From: a bacterium
GTDB taxonomy: Bacteria; JAJRZV01
DNA: 7,770 nt
Assembly: GCA_024275095.1 (NCBI GenBank)
Contig: JAJRZV010000009.1
Location: forward strand, 1-7,770
Direction of reading: 5' to 3'
This document shows positions 1 through 7,770 of this stretch, in pieces. Position 1 is the stretch's first letter, and each line of letters opens with the position of its first letter. The position numbers and the translations under genes were made by a program. Below the pieces are notes generated by a model. The model saw nothing but the letters and a program-made list of their open reading frames with translations. It searched no databases and was not told where the DNA came from.

Positions 1-1284
1 CTTCGGCACGATGGACGCAGCATTGGAGAACTTGTGGAACGGTTTATTGGTCGGAGAGGCAAATTACTATTTGCTGGTTTTACATTTTTTGCACTGATTC
101 TTGTTGTTGCTGTTTTTGCCAACGTGGTGGCCAAAACCTTTATCAGTCGGCCACAGGTCGCTTCCTCTTCCGCGTATTTCATCATGGCCGCGGTTGGATA
201 TGGCTTTCTCACATATCGCCTGAGAGTGAAAGGTGGTCTGTCATTTGCCATCGCTCTGTTGATGGTTGTGGGTTCAGTATACCTGGGTTTTTTGAAAGGA
301 ATTACGGGTACGTATACATTCTGGGTGATTATCCTTCTAATATATGTATATGTTGCTGCCACAGCTCCTGTGTGGATATTGCTGCAGCCCCGAGATTTTC
401 TTAACTCTATTATACTTTACGCACTTCTTGGAGCTTCAGTTGTTGGTGCATTTTTCAGTAATATTCATTTGAATATTCCGGTTTTTCGAAGTTTTACACC
501 AGGAGAAATGGACTATCTTTTTCCTTTTCTATTCGTTACTGTGGCCTGTGGAGCTGTTTCAGGTTTCCATTCCCTGGTCTCGTCGGGTACGACGTCCAAG
601 CAACTCGACCGCGAAACACATTCCCTTCCTGTGGGATATGGAATGATGCTCGTGGAGGGTTTGTTGGCCCTCGTTGCGCTGGCTGCAGCGGGGATAATGA
701 GTTTTCAGGATTACTCTCAACTCCTTCATCAGAAAGGTGGGCCGGTAATGGTTTTTGCCACCGGCGTTGGGAAATTTCTTGTGGCGCTTGGCCTGAACGT
801 TGACCAGGCGATAACTCTTTCTGCTCTTGCTGTTTCAGCCTTCGCACTTACATCACTGGACACATCCACACGCCTTGCTCGCCTGATACTGGAAGAGGTT
901 TTCATAGGCGAAGGACCTGCCGGGAAGATACGGTTTATCAGTACTTTCGTGGTGGTGATTTTCAGCGGTGCCCTTCTCCTGTCAGGCGGTGCAATTGTGC
1001 TGTGGCCCCTCTTCGGCTCGGCGAATCAACTTCTTGCCGCGCTCGCTTTGCTTGCCGTGTTCGTGTGGTTGAAAAATTCTGGACGTCTGAGCCTTTCATT
1101 CGTACGGTATCCGATGTATTTTGTTTTTTCATTTACCACAGTGAGCCTTGTTATAACCGGATATAAAAATCTTATTTCCGGACGCTATTTCCTTGCTCTG
1201 GTGGCCGGGTTGCTTTTTGCTCTGGCAACTGTACTGGTGGCTGAATCCTTACGGGTTAAGGGGGTAAATAAAGATGCGAAGTGA
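1..1284 (+). CDS. cstA: CstA-family carbon starvation transporter, 5' truncated by window edge
   Basis: C-terminal 427 residues of an inner-membrane CstA-family protein; characterised members import peptides or pyruvate under nutrient limitation. The frame is open from base 1. Its first codons read LRHDGRSIGEL, a conserved CstA stretch, so the GTG at 34 is an internal valine and the true start lies upstream. Further family motifs, numbered by codon in the window, are WILLQPRDFLN (125-135), the block FPFLFVTVACGAVSGF followed by HSLVSSGTTSKQL (174-202), TSLDTSTRLARLILEE (284-299) and LWPLFGSANQLLAAL (334-348). About ten hydrophobic segments span the remainder, ending in a short basic tail. The C-terminal part is much shorter than that of the roughly 700-residue E. 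coli CstA, so this is the compact form. Its last 11 bases overlap cdsA, implying co-transcription. Substrate cannot be told from sequence. Family assignment is secure. Confidence 0.93.
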   Translation, partial: LRHDGRSIGELVERFIGRRGKLLFAGFTFFALILVVAVFANVVAKTFISRPQVASSSAYFIMAAVGYGFLTYRLRVKGGLSFAIALLMVVGSVYLGFLKGITGTYTFWVIILLIYVYVAATAPVWILLQPRDFLNSIILYALLGASVVGAFFSNIHLNIPVFRSFTPGEMDYLFPFLFVTVACGAVSGFHSLVSSGTTSKQLDRETHSLPVGYGMMLVEGLLALVALAAAGIMSFQDYSQLLHQKGGPVMVFATGVGKFLVALGLNVDQAITLSALAVSAFALTSLDTSTRLARLILEEVFIGEGPAGKIRFISTFVVVIFSGALLLSGGAIVLWPLFGSANQLLAALALLAVFVWLKNSGRLSLSFVRYPMYFVFSFTTVSLVITGYKNLISGRYFLALVAGLLFALATVLVAESLRVKGVNKDAK

Positions 1285-2068
1285 ACTCACAAGGCGTGTA
1301 GTCACTGCAATTGTTGCAATTCCACTGTTACTGGTCCTGTTGTGGCTTGGAGGGTACTACTTTATTGGTCTGCTGGCGGTGCTTTCTTTTATTTTTTTTA
1401 AAGAGGCCAACAACCTTGCCCAAAAGTCAGGTGGCGGATTCGCGCATCTTCTCTGCTGGGTTATGGTATGCATGGTGATGGTTGGTATGCACATGAGAAT
1501 TGAAATTACGCTTTTTTACATTTGGGGAGCTTTTTTCATTATTCTTTCTACGGCACTTTTCAAGTCATCCCCCTACTACGCTCTTGTACACGGTGTGTTC
1601 TACTACCTTTACGGAGCCCTGGGATTTGGTCATGCCGTGTTGATGAGGGACGCCGACGAGGGCTTGTTGTGGTTGATATACGTCCTTGCTGCCACTTTTA
1701 TGGCGGATACGGGTGCTTATTTTGCAGGCAAAGCTTTTGGCAGGCACAAACTCGCTCCATCAATTTCTCCGGGTAAATCGTGGGAAGGCGTGGCTGGAGG
1801 TGTTATTCTTTCTTATATAACCATGATTGTGGCGGTATTTCTCTTCAGGGGGCGATGGGAATTGGTGTGGACGTTGATTTTTGCAGTCTTAATCACATTT
1901 GCAGGACTTGCCGGTGATCTTGCAGAATCTGCTATCAAAAGGCGTGCAGGCGTAAAGGATTCGGGCACGTTTTTCCCGGGGCACGGTGGTGTCATGGATC
2001 GGGTGGATAGCCTTATGGTGAACATTCCACTGGCTTATTACTTTTTCAGGCTTGCCGGAGTAATGTAA
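1274..2068 (+). CDS. cdsA: Phosphatidate cytidylyltransferase (CDP-diglyceride synthase)
   Basis: Integral membrane enzyme that converts phosphatidic acid and CTP to CDP-diacylglycerol and pyrophosphate, the entry step to bacterial phospholipids. At 264 residues it has normal length for the family. The CDS signature is complete at residues 219-245: S219, K222-R223, K228-D229, G236-H237-G238-G239, D242-R243 and D245 are all in register. A second conserved block, ADTGAYFAGK (144-153) then SPGKSWEG (165-172), precedes it. Hydrophobic segments fill residues 9-42, 57-95, 103-122, 130-143, 175-191 and 198-212. The ATG start is preceded by AAGGGGG at 1258-1264 with nine bases of spacing. The gene overlaps cstA by 11 bases and lies two bases before the DUF4388 gene. 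Its common neighbours (uppS, frr, dxr, rseP) are not seen here. Whether a second cdsA exists elsewhere is unknown. Confidence 0.96.
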   Translation: MRSELTRRVVTAIVAIPLLLVLLWLGGYYFIGLLAVLSFIFFKEANNLAQKSGGGFAHLLCWVMVCMVMVGMHMRIEITLFYIWGAFFIILSTALFKSSPYYALVHGVFYYLYGALGFGHAVLMRDADEGLLWLIYVLAATFMADTGAYFAGKAFGRHKLAPSISPGKSWEGVAGGVILSYITMIVAVFLFRGRWELVWTLIFAVLITFAGLAGDLAESAIKRRAGVKDSGTFFPGHGGVMDRVDSLMVNIPLAYYFFRLAGVM

Positions 2069-2070
2069 GT

Positions 2071-3210
2071 ATGAGTCTTGTTGGAAATCTGGAAGACCTC
2101 GGACTTGCGGAAATTCTTCAGATCATTAACCTCAGTCGCAAGTCCGGTTTGCTCAACATCGAAAATGAAGGGAAAAGTTATGTTATCGTGTTCAGGAACG
2201 GTCAGGTGATCTCTGCGTATGAGAAGGACTCAAAGCGCCATCTGGGTCACGCGGTGATTGAGAGAGATATTATGACCATCGAGGAGTTCAATGAACTGGC
2301 ACGAATGTTTAAGGAAAAAGGACAGAAGAACGAAACGCTTAAAGAATTTATCATCCGTAAATCGGATGTGCCGCGTGAACTTATAGAGGATGCTGTGGTT
2401 GAAGAGGTAGAGGAGATTGTTTTCAAAGTCTTCAGTTTCAAGGAAGGAAAGTTTTCATTTGAACTGATAGAGGACGACCGGGAGATCTTCCAAAAGATAC
2501 CCAAAGGAATTCCGTACCTGGATTCGGGACTTAACCCTCAGTACCTGGCAATGGAAGCCGTTCGAATTCGAGAAGAGGCTTTTCGTGGTATAGGAGAGCC
2601 GGAAAAAGCCCGGAAAGAAGGAAGCGGTGAGGAGAAATACGAGCGGCTGGAGTTCAGTGAACTTGACTCTTACGATTTCAGCGGGGACATGGGGTATGAC
2701 CAGTGGTCCCTCCTGCGGTCTTTTATCTACGAACTCGCACTTCCGGGAGGCTCAGCCGATGTCAGCCTCATGGTACTTCGGTTCGCAGGAGAGATGTTCA
2801 GACGAGCTGTAATATTCGCCGTTCGAAGAGAGAAGTTTATCGGTGTGGGTGCAGTGGCTGAGGGGGATTCCGGAGTAGACCCGGAAGGGGTGAAAAAGAT
2901 CGTTATCGGCCTGGGCGAGGAATCCATACTCAAAGATGCGTATGTTCAGAAGAGGCCTGTAAAGCGCCGGTTACTGGAAAGCGGCGGGGATCGAATGCTC
3001 ATACAGGCACTTGGAGGTTATGAACCTGCAGAGTCCTATGCAGCACCTCTTATAGTGGCAGGAAGGGTTGCTGCCGTTATTTACTGCGATAATGCCCCAG
3101 ATACCAAGGAGGTTGGTGATACAAGCGCTCTTGAGGTTTTTATGTTGCAAGCAGGACTTGTGATGGAGAAAATGTTACTGGAGAAAAAAATTAAAGAAAA
3201 ACTTCAATAA
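2071..3210 (+). CDS. DUF4388 (PATAN-like) plus GAF-like domain protein
   Basis: 379-residue soluble protein with no signal peptide or membrane segment. Residues 1-135 look like a DUF4388/PATAN domain: the opening MSLVGNLEDLGLAEILQIIN, then SRKSGLLNIENEGKS and the strand IVFRNGQVISAY are typical, followed by helices ending near EEVEEIVFKVFSFKEGKFSF. Residues about 170-205 are a charged linker. Residues about 208-365 resemble a GAF-like sensory fold, with SYAAPLIVAGRVAAVIYCDN (322-341) matching the usual 'PL-GRV-GV-Y-DN' pattern. The end, KMLLEKKIKEKLQ, is a basic helix. PATAN domains are known from cyanobacterial PatA-type regulators, where they are fused to a receiver; here the receiver is the separate next gene. 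ATG start two bases after cdsA, with GGAG at 2057-2060. Likely a regulatory or output partner of the CheA/CheY pair (inference). The ligand of the GAF-like domain, if any, is unknown. Confidence 0.8.
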   Translation: MSLVGNLEDLGLAEILQIINLSRKSGLLNIENEGKSYVIVFRNGQVISAYEKDSKRHLGHAVIERDIMTIEEFNELARMFKEKGQKNETLKEFIIRKSDVPRELIEDAVVEEVEEIVFKVFSFKEGKFSFELIEDDREIFQKIPKGIPYLDSGLNPQYLAMEAVRIREEAFRGIGEPEKARKEGSGEEKYERLEFSELDSYDFSGDMGYDQWSLLRSFIYELALPGGSADVSLMVLRFAGEMFRRAVIFAVRREKFIGVGAVAEGDSGVDPEGVKKIVIGLGEESILKDAYVQKRPVKRRLLESGGDRMLIQALGGYEPAESYAAPLIVAGRVAAVIYCDNAPDTKEVGDTSALEVFMLQAGLVMEKMLLEKKIKEKLQ

Positions 3211-3214
3211 ATCC

Positions 3215-3224
3215 AGGTGGGGAG
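3215..3224 (+). promoter_or_regulatory. Ribosome-binding site deciding the cheY GTG start
   Basis: The purine-rich run AGGTGGGGAG sits in the only gap longer than two bases in this operon (14 bases, 3211-3224) and leads straight into the GTG at 3225. Spacing is short: about four bases from AGGTGG. The alternative in-frame GTG at 3243 has GGAGAGG nine bases upstream, but starting there would remove the residues just before the first receiver beta strand, so 3225 is preferred. Confidence 0.6.
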
Positions 3225-3608
3225 GTGGAGAGGAAGAAAAAAGTGCTTGTTGTCGAAGATTCCCGGATTACTCGAGACCTCATTGTGGCGACTATTGAGG
3301 AAGGGACGGGAGCTCAGGTCGTGCAGGCCGAAAACGGTTTTCGCGCTTTAAAGTTGATTCCTGCGGAAGGCCCTTTCGACCTGATGGTATTCGACATTAA
3401 TATGCCCGATATCAACGGGCTCGAGTTGGTACGTTTCGTCAGAGAAAGTGAGCATCTGAGGGACGTGCCAGTGATTATCGTTTCCACCGAAGGTAAAAAA
3501 AGCGATATCCAGCGGGGTTTCCAGGCAGGAGCTGACGATTATATCGTGAAGCCCTTTTCCACGGAGCAGCTTTTGAATGTAGTGAAAAAATACCTTGGGA
3601 ACAGGTAA
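3225..3608 (+). CDS. cheY: CheY-like single-domain response regulator
   Basis: 127-residue stand-alone receiver domain, the likely phosphoryl acceptor of the CheA encoded next. The acidic pocket is E11-D12, the phosphorylated aspartate is D57 in FDINMPDINGLEL, the switch hydroxyl residue is S87 (threonine in E. coli CheY), the aromatic switch is Y106, and the invariant lysine is K109 before P110. Numbering of D57, 87, Y106 and K109 matches E. coli CheY. There is no output domain, so it must act by protein contact. GTG start, 14 bases after the DUF4388 gene. The stop TAA shares its last A with the cheA ATG, giving translational coupling. The target could be a flagellar switch, a pilus motor or the neighbouring DUF4388 protein; the sequence does not decide. 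No phosphatase gene (CheZ, CheC or CheX) is present in the window. Confidence 0.93.
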   Translation: MERKKKVLVVEDSRITRDLIVATIEEGTGAQVVQAENGFRALKLIPAEGPFDLMVFDINMPDINGLELVRFVRESEHLRDVPVIIVSTEGKKSDIQRGFQAGADDYIVKPFSTEQLLNVVKKYLGNR

Positions 3609-5614
3609 TGTCGGACCCGTTAGACAGTGCATACAAGGAATTTATTGCTGAATGTGAAGAGCATATAGAGGAACTTTACCGGAACATAGATGAACTCGAG
3701 TCTGCCGTTAGCGGGGGCAAGCGAATCGACCCCGATGTATTGAATGCAATGTTCAGGGCTGCCCATTCCCTCAAGGGCGTTTCCGGAATGTTCGGGTTTG
3801 AAACGCTCAGTAAACTCAGCCACGATCTGGAGAACATTCTTGATGAGTTGCGTCTGGGTAAGAGGCAGGCAACCCAAACGTTTATCGGCCATCTTTACGA
3901 TGCAGTGGATGCTTTGAGGAAAATACTTGCAGCGGGGAAGGAGGATGCGCTTTCGGACGAGGTGCGGCGCGAGGCAGTGAACATAATAGATCAGCTCATG
4001 AAAACACGGGAAGAAGAGTCCCCCAAAGGCATAGAAGAATCGGGTTATGACGTGCCCGAACGAATTGTATCTGTAATGACTGAATACGAAGAACACCGCC
4101 TCAGGGAAAACATGCGCATGGGGATGAACCTCTATCTTCTTAAGGCGGTGTTTGACCTCGAGGATTTTGACGAGAGGCTGAACCTTCTCAACGAACGGAT
4201 CAAGCAGGACGGGGGCGAGGTGATATCCACACTTCCCAGTGCTGATGAAGTGGAGCCTGGAAAGATTAAATTTGAATTGCTTGTGGGTACAGAGAGTGCT
4301 CTGGAAGAGGTTAAAAAGAAACTATCGGATTTTAAAATTGAAATAGAAGAGCTGAAAAAGAAGGCAGAGGTTCCACCTGCCCCTGCCCCCCCGGTTGAAG
4401 AGAAGCCTCCGCCTCCTCCCACAGAAACACCCGTGCATACAACCCAGTTTTTGAGAGTAGAGATCTACAGGCTTGATGAAATTATGAATGTAGTCGGTGA
4501 GTTGTTTCTTGCAAGAACAGCAGTGGGACGCCTGCTGGAGAGGTGGAAAAGAGAAGGGAAAGATACCGAGGATATACTCGAGCTTGAGCGTATTGAGAGA
4601 AGCATGGAAAGAAACCTCAACGATTTGCGCGAGCGCATAATGGAAATTCGCATGATACCGGTGAAATCACTTTTTGATCGGGTTACGCGTGCAGTCAAGA
4701 AGATTGCGAGAGAGATGAAAAAGGACATCGTTATTGAATATTCAGGTGAAGAGACAAAACTGGATAAGTTCATCATAGAGGAACTTATGGACCCCCTCAT
4801 GCATATCATCAGGAACTCCATTGACCATGGATTGGAATCGCCTGAAGAACGCATGCTGGCCGGAAAACCAGAAACAGGCCGTATTTCCCTTCTTGCATAT
4901 CAAAAAGGCAATCACGTGGTAATTGAAGTGGAGGATGACGGTCGAGGTATCGACGTGGAAAAGATTAGAGCCAAAGCAGTGGAAAAAGGGCTCATAGGGC
5001 GTGGGGAGGTTATCTCGGAGGAGGAATTGCTTAACCTTATATTCATGCCGGGATTCAGCACCAAGGATGAGGTAAGCATGATTTCCGGGCGGGGAGTGGG
5101 TCTTGATGTGGTGGCGGATAAGATAAAGGGTCTTCGGGGTATTGTGGAGGTAAAGACGAAGAAAGGTGAAATGACGCGTTTCGTACTTACCCTGCCCATG
5201 ACATTGGCCATTATTCAGGCCCTTCTCATCAAGATCGGGGAAAGGGAGTTCGGTATTCCTATTACGGCTGTTCATGAGACCATTGAATATGAAAGTTCCA
5301 TACTTCGAGCCGTGGAAGGTAGGGAGGTGGTTTTGCTCAGGGATGAAACCATTCCCATACTGAATCTGGAGCAAATGTTTTCTTTTTCAACAGATGGCTA
5401 TGAGCCCCGATTTCTCATTATTACAGGAATGGGAGACCGTAAGGTGGGCATCCCTGTAACCGACCTTATAGGTCGCAGTGATGTAGTGATTAAAAGTCTG
5501 GGTGGAGTGTTCAAAAATTTGAAGGGAATCGCAGGAGCTGCTGATCTGGGAGAGGATCGGATTGTCCTGATCCTGGATGTAACCTCGTTGCTGGAAGAAG
5601 TGGTGAGGGTGTGA
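3608..5614 (+). CDS. cheA: Chemosensory histidine kinase CheA
   Basis: 668-residue cytoplasmic kinase of chemosensory arrays that autophosphorylates and passes phosphate to CheY. P1 (HPt) spans about 1-125 with phosphorylated H53 in AAHSLKG. Residues about 150-252 form a second small domain in the place of P2 (NLYLLKAVFDL, then GGEVISTLP and KIKFELLVGTES). A proline-rich linker follows at 256-275. P3, the dimerisation helices, covers about 281-350. P4, the ATPase domain, covers about 351-530: N box IIRNSIDHG (401-408 region, N403), G1 box DDGRGID (443-449), F box FMPGFSTKDEV and G2 box SGRGVGLDVV (493-502). P5, the CheW-like coupling domain, runs from about 531 to 665. All catalytic motifs look intact. 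The start overlaps the cheY stop by one base, with GGGA at 3597-3600. The last codons GTG AGG GTG also provide the ribosome-binding site of the next gene. Assignment is secure; the output pathway is not. Confidence 0.97.
   Translation: MSDPLDSAYKEFIAECEEHIEELYRNIDELESAVSGGKRIDPDVLNAMFRAAHSLKGVSGMFGFETLSKLSHDLENILDELRLGKRQATQTFIGHLYDAVDALRKILAAGKEDALSDEVRREAVNIIDQLMKTREEESPKGIEESGYDVPERIVSVMTEYEEHRLRENMRMGMNLYLLKAVFDLEDFDERLNLLNERIKQDGGEVISTLPSADEVEPGKIKFELLVGTESALEEVKKKLSDFKIEIEELKKKAEVPPAPAPPVEEKPPPPPTETPVHTTQFLRVEIYRLDEIMNVVGELFLARTAVGRLLERWKREGKDTEDILELERIERSMERNLNDLRERIMEIRMIPVKSLFDRVTRAVKKIAREMKKDIVIEYSGEETKLDKFIIEELMDPLMHIIRNSIDHGLESPEERMLAGKPETGRISLLAYQKGNHVVIEVEDDGRGIDVEKIRAKAVEKGLIGRGEVISEEELLNLIFMPGFSTKDEVSMISGRGVGLDVVADKIKGLRGIVEVKTKKGEMTRFVLTLPMTLAIIQALLIKIGEREFGIPITAVHETIEYESSILRAVEGREVVLLRDETIPILNLEQMFSFSTDGYEPRFLIITGMGDRKVGIPVTDLIGRSDVVIKSLGGVFKNLKGIAGAADLGEDRIVLILDVTSLLEEVVRV
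4373..4432 (+). other. Proline-rich linker in CheA between P2-like domain and P3
   Basis: Residues 256-275 of CheA hold eleven prolines mixed with alanine, glutamate and threonine. They separate the P2-like domain from the dimerisation domain and probably form a stiff, extended tether that lets P1 reach the ATPase domain. The coding strand contains a run of seven C at 4386-4392, but the frame stays open across it. Confidence 0.75.
5605..5609 (+). promoter_or_regulatory. Ribosome-binding site deciding the ATPase start
   Basis: GAGGG lies seven bases before the ATG at 5617, and only one base before the GTG at 5611 that would give the longest open frame. Spacing and the family's usual N-terminus (M-Y-x-x-F-Y-G-L) both favour ATG 5617. 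The site is encoded by the last codons of cheA. Confidence 0.8.
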
Positions 5615-5616
5615 AT

Positions 5617-6426
5617 ATGTATGAAAGTTTTTACGGACTTGATGCCAAGCCTTTCTCCAAAACTCCCGACCCTGAATTTCTCTACATGAGCAAACAGCAT
5701 GCGGAAGCTCTTGCACGTCTGCAATTCGCAGCCGAAGAGAAGGAAATCATGGTTCTTACCGGTGAAATAGGAACGGGGAAGACGACTCTTTCAAGGGCTC
5801 TGTTTGATTCCCTGGGGGATTCGTATAAAAAGATTCTCATCATCAATCCAGTACTTTCTCCATACCAGTTTTTAAGGGTGCTCGCCAGGCGTCTGGGTGT
5901 TTCTCAGCTTCCGAGGTCGAGAAGTGAACTGTCAGAAAAAATTCAGGAGGCTTTTTTCGAATTTTTTGAACAGGGAATCACGCCAGTTATTGTAGTGGAC
6001 GAGGCACAACTCATACCTGGTAAACCTACTTTTGATGAGATACGCCTGCTCACCAATTTTCAGCTGGATGATACGAACCTCTTTTGTTTGATTCTTGTCG
6101 GACAGCCGGAACTCAACCGGAGGTTAAGGCACCCTGCATACCGGGCACTCAGCCAGCGTTTCGGCCTCCGTTTTCACCTTGATCCTCTGAGCCTTGATGA
6201 GACGCGGGAATACATCAAGTTTCGCTTGGAGAAAGCAGGGGGCACGCTGGATGTTTTTTCTGAAAACGCTGTGGAACTGATTTATAAATATTCCGGGGGT
6301 ATTCCCAGGGTCATCAACAACATTGCATCCGCATGCCTCATAGAAGGTTTTGCTCGAGAGGAGAGAGTAATATCTCCTGACGTGGTTGAAGATGTTGTTT
6401 CAGATCTTGGGCTGAAAGAGGATTGA
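5617..6426 (+). CDS. ExeA/GspA-type AAA+ ATPase (ATPase domain only)
   Basis: 269-residue cytoplasmic P-loop ATPase. The N-terminus MYESFYGLDAKPFSKTPDP is the hallmark opening of the ExeA/GspA family. Walker A is GEIGTGKTT (49-57), Walker B is VIVVDEAQ (124-131), the sensor-1 region is LILVGQPEL (158-166), R177 or R181 in YRALSQRFG may be the arginine finger, and SGGIPRVINN (226-235) is the sensor-2 segment. ExeA of type II secretion carries a transmembrane segment and a peptidoglycan-binding region after the ATPase; both are absent, so this is the short form also found in exopolysaccharide/exosortase loci and resembling TnsC/TniB-like ATPases. It begins two bases after cheA and ends two bases before cheW, so it is part of the chemosensory operon. 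The start is ATG 5617 rather than GTG 5611. Its role here is unknown; an energy-using effector or assembly factor controlled by the pathway is one inference. Confidence 0.88.
   Translation: MYESFYGLDAKPFSKTPDPEFLYMSKQHAEALARLQFAAEEKEIMVLTGEIGTGKTTLSRALFDSLGDSYKKILIINPVLSPYQFLRVLARRLGVSQLPRSRSELSEKIQEAFFEFFEQGITPVIVVDEAQLIPGKPTFDEIRLLTNFQLDDTNLFCLILVGQPELNRRLRHPAYRALSQRFGLRFHLDPLSLDETREYIKFRLEKAGGTLDVFSENAVELIYKYSGGIPRVINNIASACLIEGFAREERVISPDVVEDVVSDLGLKED
6418..6421 (+). promoter_or_regulatory. Ribosome-binding site deciding the first cheW start
   Basis: GAGG (within AAGAGGAT) lies seven bases before ATG 6429. The longest open frame would begin at TTG 6423, immediately adjacent to this site and overlapping the upstream stop, which is too close for initiation. 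ATG 6429 is therefore chosen. Confidence 0.8.
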
Positions 6427-6428
6427 GC

Positions 6429-7274
6429 ATGGATATTCTCGAAGCAAGGAAAAAGGCTAAGACAAAAAGCAGGGGTAAAGGCGTTAAAAAGCGTCGTAAG
6501 AAAATTCAACCTGAAGAGAAGAAGCCGGCTAAGAAGGACGAAATTAAGGATGCTATTCTCGAAGCCTCTCAGGACCTTGCAGTAATGGAGGAGGGTCTGG
6601 AAAAAATTGAGGAGAGGGAGGAAGAAAAGGCATTGATTGAAGCGCTGGAAGGGAAAGTTGAAGACGAATCCTCTGGAGAAACGGTTGAAGAGAAAGTGGA
6701 AATGGATCAGCAGGTGTTTCAGGAAACAGAGAAGAAGGAAGAAGACGCAGAACTTTCATTTGCCGATGTGGCCGCGGCTGAGCTCCTCAAGCAGGCCGAG
6801 GCGCAGAAGGCCCTTGGGGAAGAGGTGCAATTTCTGGCCTTCCGACTGGGGAAAGAATTCTTCGCTGTTGAGATTCACCACATTCGTGAAATTGTAAAAC
6901 CGAGGAGTATCACCCCTGTACCGGGTGTTTCAGAACATATACTTGGAATTACATCCGTACGAGGCAATATCATGCCTGTTGTCGATGTGGGTTACAGGAT
7001 AGGGATGTTTGATTCACTTTACGATCCCGGGAATTGGGATAAAAAAACACGGTTTGTTATTTTCAATTTTGACAGGGTTCTTGTGAGCATGGTGGTACAG
7101 GAGGTTGCAGGGGTTATAAAAGCTTTTGAGGAAGAGGTCGAACCAGTGCCTCCTACAGTTACCGGGCCCGCATCAGAATATCTTGTAGGCATTATAAGGC
7201 GTGACTCTGACATCTATACTGTTATCAGTATAAGAGAGGTGTTTGATTTTCTTTTCAAGGCTGAGGGTGATTGA
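6429..7274 (+). CDS. cheW: CheW coupling protein with long charged N-terminal extension
   Basis: 281-residue protein, about 120 residues longer than a typical CheW. Residues 131-277 form a standard CheW domain that links chemoreceptors to CheA: VQFLAFRLGKEFFAVEIHHI opens it, VPGVSEHILGITSVRGN (164-180) includes the conserved arginine R178, and IMPVVDVGYRIG follows. Residues 1-36 are strongly basic (K/R clusters such as KKRRKK at 20-25). Residues about 38-110 are very rich in glutamate, probably helical or coiled-coil, and about 110-130 form an alanine-rich helix leading into the domain. No signal peptide or membrane segment is seen. The ATG start lies two bases after the ATPase stop. The last codons (AAG GCT GAG GGT GAT) contain the ribosome-binding site of the second cheW. 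The CheW call is secure; the role of the extension is unknown, with array scaffolding, partner binding or anionic-surface binding all possible. Confidence 0.93.
   Translation: MDILEARKKAKTKSRGKGVKKRRKKIQPEEKKPAKKDEIKDAILEASQDLAVMEEGLEKIEEREEEKALIEALEGKVEDESSGETVEEKVEMDQQVFQETEKKEEDAELSFADVAAAELLKQAEAQKALGEEVQFLAFRLGKEFFAVEIHHIREIVKPRSITPVPGVSEHILGITSVRGNIMPVVDVGYRIGMFDSLYDPGNWDKKTRFVIFNFDRVLVSMVVQEVAGVIKAFEEEVEPVPPTVTGPASEYLVGIIRRDSDIYTVISIREVFDFLFKAEGD
7263..7267 (+). promoter_or_regulatory. Ribosome-binding site for the second cheW
   Basis: GAGGG lies eight bases before GTG 7276. An in-frame GTG at 7267 with AAGG at 7257-7260 is a possible alternative and would add three residues (M-I-E). 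The 7276 start keeps the 1-2-base spacing seen at most other junctions of this operon. Confidence 0.55.
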
Positions 7275-7275
7275 A

Positions 7276-7770
7276 GTGGCTGAGTTTGTAGAGTACAGAG
7301 TTGATGGAGTTCATTTCGCCATAGATATAATGGAAGTGTTTGAAATCATTATGCCTCCGGAAAACGTTATACCCGTTCCCCAGGCACCATCGTACGTAAA
7401 AGGACTTTACGATTTGCGGGGTACAGTCATTCCCATTGTGGATATGAGATTAAAGCTGGGTATTGAAGCTTCTCCTCTTACCAAAAAAGCGAGGGTACTC
7501 GTGGCCAGAGTGGGAGAGAAGCCCATGGGAATATTGGTGGATGAGGCTTCCCGGATTCTTCGAGTCTCAAATGAGGCAGTAAAACCTCCTCCAGAGGTGT
7601 TCGTTGAGGCCCAGGAAGGCGCATTTATGAAAGGAGTGCTCAGGGATGCCGGTAGACTTGTTTTAATTCTTGATCATTCTCGCGTTTTCAAAGAGAGGGC
7701 TGTTATAGCTCTTGAGGAATTAAAGAAAGGTATAGAGGAGGTAAAAACCAGCAAAACAAAATCCAAGAAA
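7276..7770 (+). CDS. cheW: Second CheW coupling protein, 3' end beyond window
   Basis: The frame is open from GTG 7276 to the window end (165 codons, no stop), so the gene is 3' partial. Residues about 1-138 form a CheW domain: AEFVEYRVDGVHFAIDIMEV, then VPQAPSYVKGLYDLRGTVIP with conserved R48, VDMRLKLG, GILVDEASRILRV and the closing VLRDAGRLVLILDHSRVF. Residues 139-165 leave the fold as a charged helix ending in a lysine-rich tail (KTSKTKSKK). The domain is complete, so the protein probably ends soon after 7770, but a further fused domain cannot be excluded. It starts one base after the first cheW stop and differs clearly from it in sequence, so the two are diverged paralogs rather than a recent duplication. 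Two coupling proteins may serve different receptors or different positions in the array. Start codon choice (7276 versus 7267) is uncertain. Confidence 0.93.
   Translation, partial: MAEFVEYRVDGVHFAIDIMEVFEIIMPPENVIPVPQAPSYVKGLYDLRGTVIPIVDMRLKLGIEASPLTKKARVLVARVGEKPMGILVDEASRILRVSNEAVKPPPEVFVEAQEGAFMKGVLRDAGRLVLILDHSRVFKERAVIALEELKKGIEEVKTSKTKSKK

Follow-up and report, generated by a model that had tools for sequence, protein, structure and literature searches.

A PATAN-GAF gene without an internal receiver opens a chemotaxis-like operon

The adjacent genes for a PATAN (DUF4388)-GAF protein and a free CheY, at positions 2,071 to 3,608 of the 7,770-bp stretch of DNA analysed here (the window), form the opening of a complete chemotaxis-like operon. 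Judged by gene order and content, this operon is homologous to the beta-group che systems found in delta-proteobacteria and their relatives, among which Esn and Che8 appear to rank. With moderate confidence we favour the reading that it is an Esn/Che8-type che operon, in which the PATAN-GAF protein would be an output or adaptor component that acts on surface appendages or matrix and has lost its receiver. The window is an entire contig (C82) of a genome of 2.45 Mb and 97% completeness that has no close relative among the genomes compared, and all its genes lie on the plus strand. The features discussed below are the following.

Start of the window, 5'-cut, + strand: CstA-like gene, first gene of the window
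1274..2068, + strand: cdsA-like phosphatidate cytidylyltransferase (PF01148, E 1.1e-63)
2071..3210, + strand: PATAN(DUF4388)-GAF protein, 379 aa, without internal receiver (PF14332, AlphaFold2 model, GAF fold, ortholog alignment)
2071..2586, + strand: PATAN/DUF4388 domain, residues 1-172 (Pfam and model)
2242..2433, + strand: alpha-helical PATAN insertion (residues 58-121) resembling MshEN/GSPII of pilus ATPases, motif degenerate
2590..2697, + strand: short linker, residues 174-209, of low confidence over 184-209, where most orthologs carry a receiver
2686..3204, + strand: GAF-fold domain, residues 206-378 (AlphaFold2 model, structure matches)
3225..3608, + strand: CheY, single receiver domain, GTG start, phosphoacceptor D57 (Response_reg, E 5.7e-28)
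3608..5614, + strand: CheA with Hpt, weak P2, P3 dimer, HATPase and CheW-like domains (domain matches)
5611..6426, + strand: ExeA-like AAA ATPase (AAA_22, E 2.2e-23)
6429..7274, + strand: CheW whose N-terminus carries a long, charged extension (CheW, E 1.2e-25)
7276..7770, + strand: second CheW, truncated at the end of the contig, with its stop on contig C95 (CheW, E 8.3e-33)
175-2682 and 2696-4801 of locus L151 (contig C95): two MCP genes inside the operon

The continuation of the operon is found on contig C95, whose positions 1-141 are identical to window positions 7630-7770, an exact overlap of 141 bp that joins the two contigs of the bin. C95 carries the end of the second CheW gene, the two MCP genes, and genes for a zinc-ribbon-receiver protein (Zn-ribbon-REC) and a HEAT-repeat protein, cheR, cheB, a GAF gene, a second cheY and ndk. 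The joined operon thus reads PATAN-GAF, CheY, CheA, AAA ATPase, CheW, CheW, MCP, MCP, Zn-ribbon-REC, HEAT, CheR, CheB, GAF, CheY, and the overlap together with this gene content indicates a full chemosensory pathway including the adaptation enzymes. Directly upstream, the cdsA-like gene ends at 2068, and the PATAN-GAF gene starts at 2071; cdsA is probably an operon neighbour that stands outside the chemosensory system, and in one of the related loci (L070) the PATAN-REC-GAF gene (REC, receiver) is likewise closely preceded by a cdsA.

The domain architecture of the PATAN-GAF protein agrees largely with what a preliminary description of this DNA had proposed. Its N-terminus matches DUF4388 (PF14332) over residues 5-169 with E 5.5e-22 and 78.5 bits against a Pfam cut-off of 25, so that the assignment to DUF4388/PATAN is borne out; the limits suggested for the domain (1-135) stop short, as it ends near residue 172. 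The second half had been called GAF-like over residues 208-365. Here the Pfam match to GAF (PF01590) stays below the cut-off (E 0.11), and it is the structure that speaks for the assignment: an AlphaFold2 model built from a 33-sequence alignment (mean pLDDT 88.4, mostly >90 within the domains, linker 184-209 disordered) matches solved GAF domains over residues of about 206-376, with a VIA Z of 17.9 to 3ci6 (rmsd 3.4 Å, 156 residues) and a Foldseek E of 9e-7 for the GAF part. The fold and roughly the limits of the GAF-like region hold, therefore, and the expected HMM match does not. Pfam detects no Response_reg domain within 2071-3210, and the alignment with orthologs shows a gap at the receiver site. 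The PATAN domain itself is divergent, its best identity being 49% over core columns, and a sequence search of solved structures found no relative.

The adjoining gene encodes, as had been described, a free CheY with D57: the Response_reg match is canonical, and the gene is co-directional with the PATAN-GAF gene and lies inside the che operon. Residues E11, D12, D57, T88 and K109 are present, completing the set of acidic pair, phosphoacceptor, threonine and lysine, and D12, D57, T88 and K109 are invariant across 72 neighbouring CheYs, in which the stretch DINMPDINGLEL is also very conserved.

A scan of contigs with the window protein alone as query gave no matches. With a receiver-stripped family alignment as query 80 loci were recovered, the majority belonging to Desulfuromonadales/Geobacteraceae and further delta-proteobacterial bins. 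In the three best of the relatives obtained first (L040-L042) the protein has 560-654 aa and the order PATAN, receiver, GAF, and in L041, L042 and the contig of L040 (there as L061) separate CheY and CheA genes follow the PATAN-REC-GAF gene; other genomes of the three phylum-level groups concerned have such long forms wherever the gene is whole. Overall, across relatives from several phyla, an internal receiver is present in 63 of the 80 usable proteins and absent in 17, the window protein included, and where present it always sits between PATAN and GAF. Nearly all internal receivers keep the acidic residues, the phosphoacceptor and the lysine; in the L042 group the acidic pair is changed. The surrounding gene order is strongly conserved. 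At 69 of 73 loci (55/58 with and 14/15 without internal receiver) the distance from the PATAN gene to the start of a CheY gene is no more than 250 bp. Of the 50 loci for which 9 kb or more of downstream sequence is available, all have CheY and CheA, 44 the AAA ATPase, 45 Zn-ribbon-REC, 46 HEAT, 45 CheR and 41 CheB. The ExeA-like ATPase (window 5611-6426) is kept between CheA and CheW in those 44 of 50 relatives. At two loci (L068 and L069) a receiver-less PATAN-GAF gene is followed by a zinc-ribbon-receiver gene in the place of CheY, and five receiver-less relatives (L065, L068, L072, L074, L079) have a PATAN domain that lacks the helical insertion entirely.

How did the window protein come to be without a receiver? 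The CheA tree implies at least six changes of receiver state, five of them forced by well-supported branches, and the PATAN/GAF tree seven changes, three of them forced, both trees being unrooted with long branches. Since the receiver site is shared and the form with a receiver occurs across deep groups, a series of losses is a simpler account than repeated gain, and we infer that the receiver was lost repeatedly. As judged from these sequence comparisons, an internal receiver was probably once present in the window protein and then lost, as happened in several related lineages.

The preliminary description had seen in the two adjacent genes a split PATAN/receiver pair, that is, the two modules of a PatA-type PATAN-receiver protein in separate genes. 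The adjacency of the PATAN and CheY modules would fit such an origin of the free CheY. Relatives with an internal receiver, however, nearly all have a free CheY as well (55 of the 58 in which this could be scored), the receiver of the PATAN-REC-GAF proteins sits mid-protein, and the window CheY resembles the free CheYs of the relatives (median identity 48%, 122 bits) and matches the internal receivers poorly (about 25% identity, 25 of 63 detected, best 38 bits). By orthology the window CheY is a member of the relatives' free CheYs, a group apart from the internal receivers, and its retention beside receiver-containing forms marks it as an old, separate component. The split-PatA origin is contradicted by this co-occurrence and orthology; we reject it as extremely improbable. 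The source genome also has a further PATAN gene that is fused to its receiver: a second chemosensory cluster, on contig C136 (L158 1402-5302), encodes a receiver-PATAN fusion beside its own CheA, which ends in a C-terminal receiver, as well as a CheB-like protein. On contig C9 (L155 5893-9271) a receiver-PATAN protein is encoded beside a gene with a GGDEF match, and two further proteins of the source genome combine PATAN with TPR repeats (L157 6393-7562, L159 5934-7463), one of them also with a DnaJ domain.

A functional rather than evolutionary pairing could also be imagined, in which phosphorylated CheY binds the PATAN-GAF protein in trans and stands in for the lost receiver as switch. The strict adjacency of CheY and PATAN genes (69/73), the very conserved CheY stretch given above and the persistence of CheY through repeated changes of receiver state would be consistent with it. 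Adjacency is equally strong, however, at loci where the PATAN protein itself includes a receiver whose residues are intact, and thus need not reflect binding, so that we regard this pairing as fairly unlikely.

How might the pathway act on the cell? FliM and FliG are absent from the 97%-complete genome, pilB, pilT and pilC are present together on contig C132, and PilB, the pilus motor, is a binding partner of PATAN regulators in Synechocystis (PMC10519157, PMC12288463), a contact known from cyanobacteria only. For these reasons an output on surface appendages (pilus or surface) is likely. The earlier proposal that the pathway serves the surface or envelope and not flagella is in line with these gene contents and with the published relatives, which affect electrode colonisation and matrix. 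In the favoured reading of an Esn/Che8-type operon, the receptors and the two CheWs would control CheA, CheA would phosphorylate CheY at D57, and CheR and CheB would adapt the receptors. The PATAN-GAF protein would be the output or adaptor of the pathway, its PATAN part acting either on matrix production or on surface appendages, there most probably on the motor that extends type IV pili. In most relatives the PATAN protein would be controlled by its own receiver and by GAF input; with the receiver lost in the window lineage, control would probably fall to the GAF domain and partner proteins, and the free CheY at the operon head would still take phosphate from CheA. Against this reading weigh the divergence of the window's PATAN domain and its degenerate insertion motif, and the literature yielded no experiment on a PATAN-GAF protein of the window type.

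Two other assignments of function have to be weighed against this one. The PATAN-GAF protein could be an input or scaffold component, its GAF domain sensing a small molecule and tuning CheA or the array, with no output on pili. The confident GAF fold is kept, and in L068 and L069 the gene adjoins that of the Zn-ribbon-REC protein instead of CheY, as might suit such a role; known PATAN regulators act downstream, on PilB, however, and the receiver of most orthologs keeps its phosphorylation residues, as expected of an output protein, which makes an input role improbable in our estimation. Alternatively, not pili but the extracellular matrix or the c-di-GMP level could be under the control of the pathway. 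A diguanylate cyclase is linked to Esn (Chan et al., 2017; PMC5585712), knockouts of Geobacter cluster 5 affected the matrix according to preliminary unpublished data stated in PMC2577667, and the source genome has five GGDEF proteins. Against this stands the lack of a cyclase gene in the operon, and we consider control of matrix or c-di-GMP in place of pili possible, albeit somewhat doubtful.

A link to pilus motors may also lie in the PATAN insertion, whose helices span residues 58-64, 70-83, 90-97 and 102-121 in the model. The best structural neighbours of a PATAN-only model (pLDDT 94.7) are, over residues 55-115, the c-di-GMP-binding GSPII/MshEN domains of pilus ATPases (VIA Z 5.2, rmsd 1.9 Å over 57 residues; Foldseek probability 1.00, yet E 0.16), and a family profile of the insertion aligns to the N-termini of the source genome's PilB and GspE with 97.9% probability in hhalign. 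Pfam MshEN gave no match to the PATAN proteins at E up to 10. The likeness was not found stated in the literature examined; PATAN and its insertion were reportedly described by Makarova et al. in 2006, who may already have it. Of 79 relatives, which are not mutually independent, 36 contain a relaxed form of the 24-residue MshEN motif (Wang et al., 2016; PMC5013675), almost always at residue 57; among shuffled sequences the share is 0.06%. The insertion of the window protein is degenerate and fails to match it. PilB and GspE of the source genome also miss the full relaxed pattern, so that the motif is a rough guide and a miss no proof of non-binding. The insertion is well kept in Geobacter-type relatives (PATAN regions of L078, L073 and L152). 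Contig C110 of the source genome encodes tandem PATAN proteins (L152 6875-8017 and 7926-9305), the second of which matches the relaxed motif (RFGAILIKKGFLTPKQLWAGVKYQ). It could be speculated that the insertion is a derived MshEN c-di-GMP module, that PATAN-REC-GAF proteins integrate c-di-GMP, phosphate from CheA and a GAF ligand and signal to the pilus motor through mimicry of PilB's N-terminal domain, and that the window protein is a stripped form that has lost receiver and nucleotide motif and retains GAF input alone; to this combined proposal we assign a low probability.

In the comparison with known systems, gene order and content are the basis for the equation with Esn and Che8, the loci of G. 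sulfurreducens and M. xanthus being known here from publications. The beta group is a conserved type of che cluster in Geobacter, Anaeromyxobacter and Myxococcus (Tran et al., 2008; PMC2577667), with cheA, cheW, cheR and cheB in one conserved cluster, and the order is conserved here too; the Geobacteraceae loci examined likewise read PATAN, CheY, CheA, ATPase, CheW, CheW, Zn-ribbon-REC, HEAT, CheR, CheB. Unlike the clusters of Tran and colleagues, which are without mcp, the window operon has two MCP genes, and therefore it would be a variant of the beta-group type; MCPs are also carried by loci of other relatives. It further differs in that its PATAN protein has no receiver and that no CheY lies between its two CheWs. 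Geobacter Esn and Myxococcus Che8 appear to be members of the same cluster type. For Esn, an electrode sensing network whose requirement for growth on electrodes is published for G. sulfurreducens only, Chan et al. (2017; PMC5585712) report that deletions of esnB (GSU2220) and esnC (GSU2222) made growth on electrodes defective and left Fe(III) oxide reduction unaffected, that an electrode screen hit CheW GSU2220, the ATPase GSU2221 and CheA GSU2222, with a Tn-Seq electrode effect for the ATPase, and that MCP and diguanylate cyclase are encoded elsewhere, unlike the MCPs of the window operon. The CheW-ATPase-CheA order of GSU2220-GSU2222 matches the window operon, and the PATAN gene was not found named in the passages of that paper examined. 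The Che8 locus of M. xanthus (MXAN_4751-4759) contains, in locus-tag order, CheY8b, CheA8, CheW8b, CheW8a, two genes, CheR8, CheB8 and CheY8a (Moine et al., 2014; PMC3945109), similar to the order here, except that CheA8 and CheW8b, by their locus tags, follow each other too closely for an ATPase gene to lie between them. In cyanobacteria, PixG/PixH (Tax1) and related PATAN-REC and CheY pairs of Synechocystis share with the window a che operon that encodes a PATAN protein and a free CheY, one of each (PMC5812497, PMC10519157); PixG has its own receiver, whereas the window protein has a GAF domain and none. PatA of Anabaena shares the N-terminal PATAN domain and differs in its same-chain receiver and its genomic setting.

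The beta-group/Esn pathway governs electrode colonisation by Geobacter, and the papers examined were not found to name a direct output protein from its operon. The conserved PATAN-(REC)-GAF gene at the operon head is a candidate for this output protein of Esn-type pathways, one whose receiver comes and goes and beside which CheY stays. Furthermore, sequence and structure suggest that PATAN is linked to that end of pilus motors which binds c-di-GMP. The output role, the turnover of the receiver and the link of PATAN to the pilus motor would all be testable in Geobacter.
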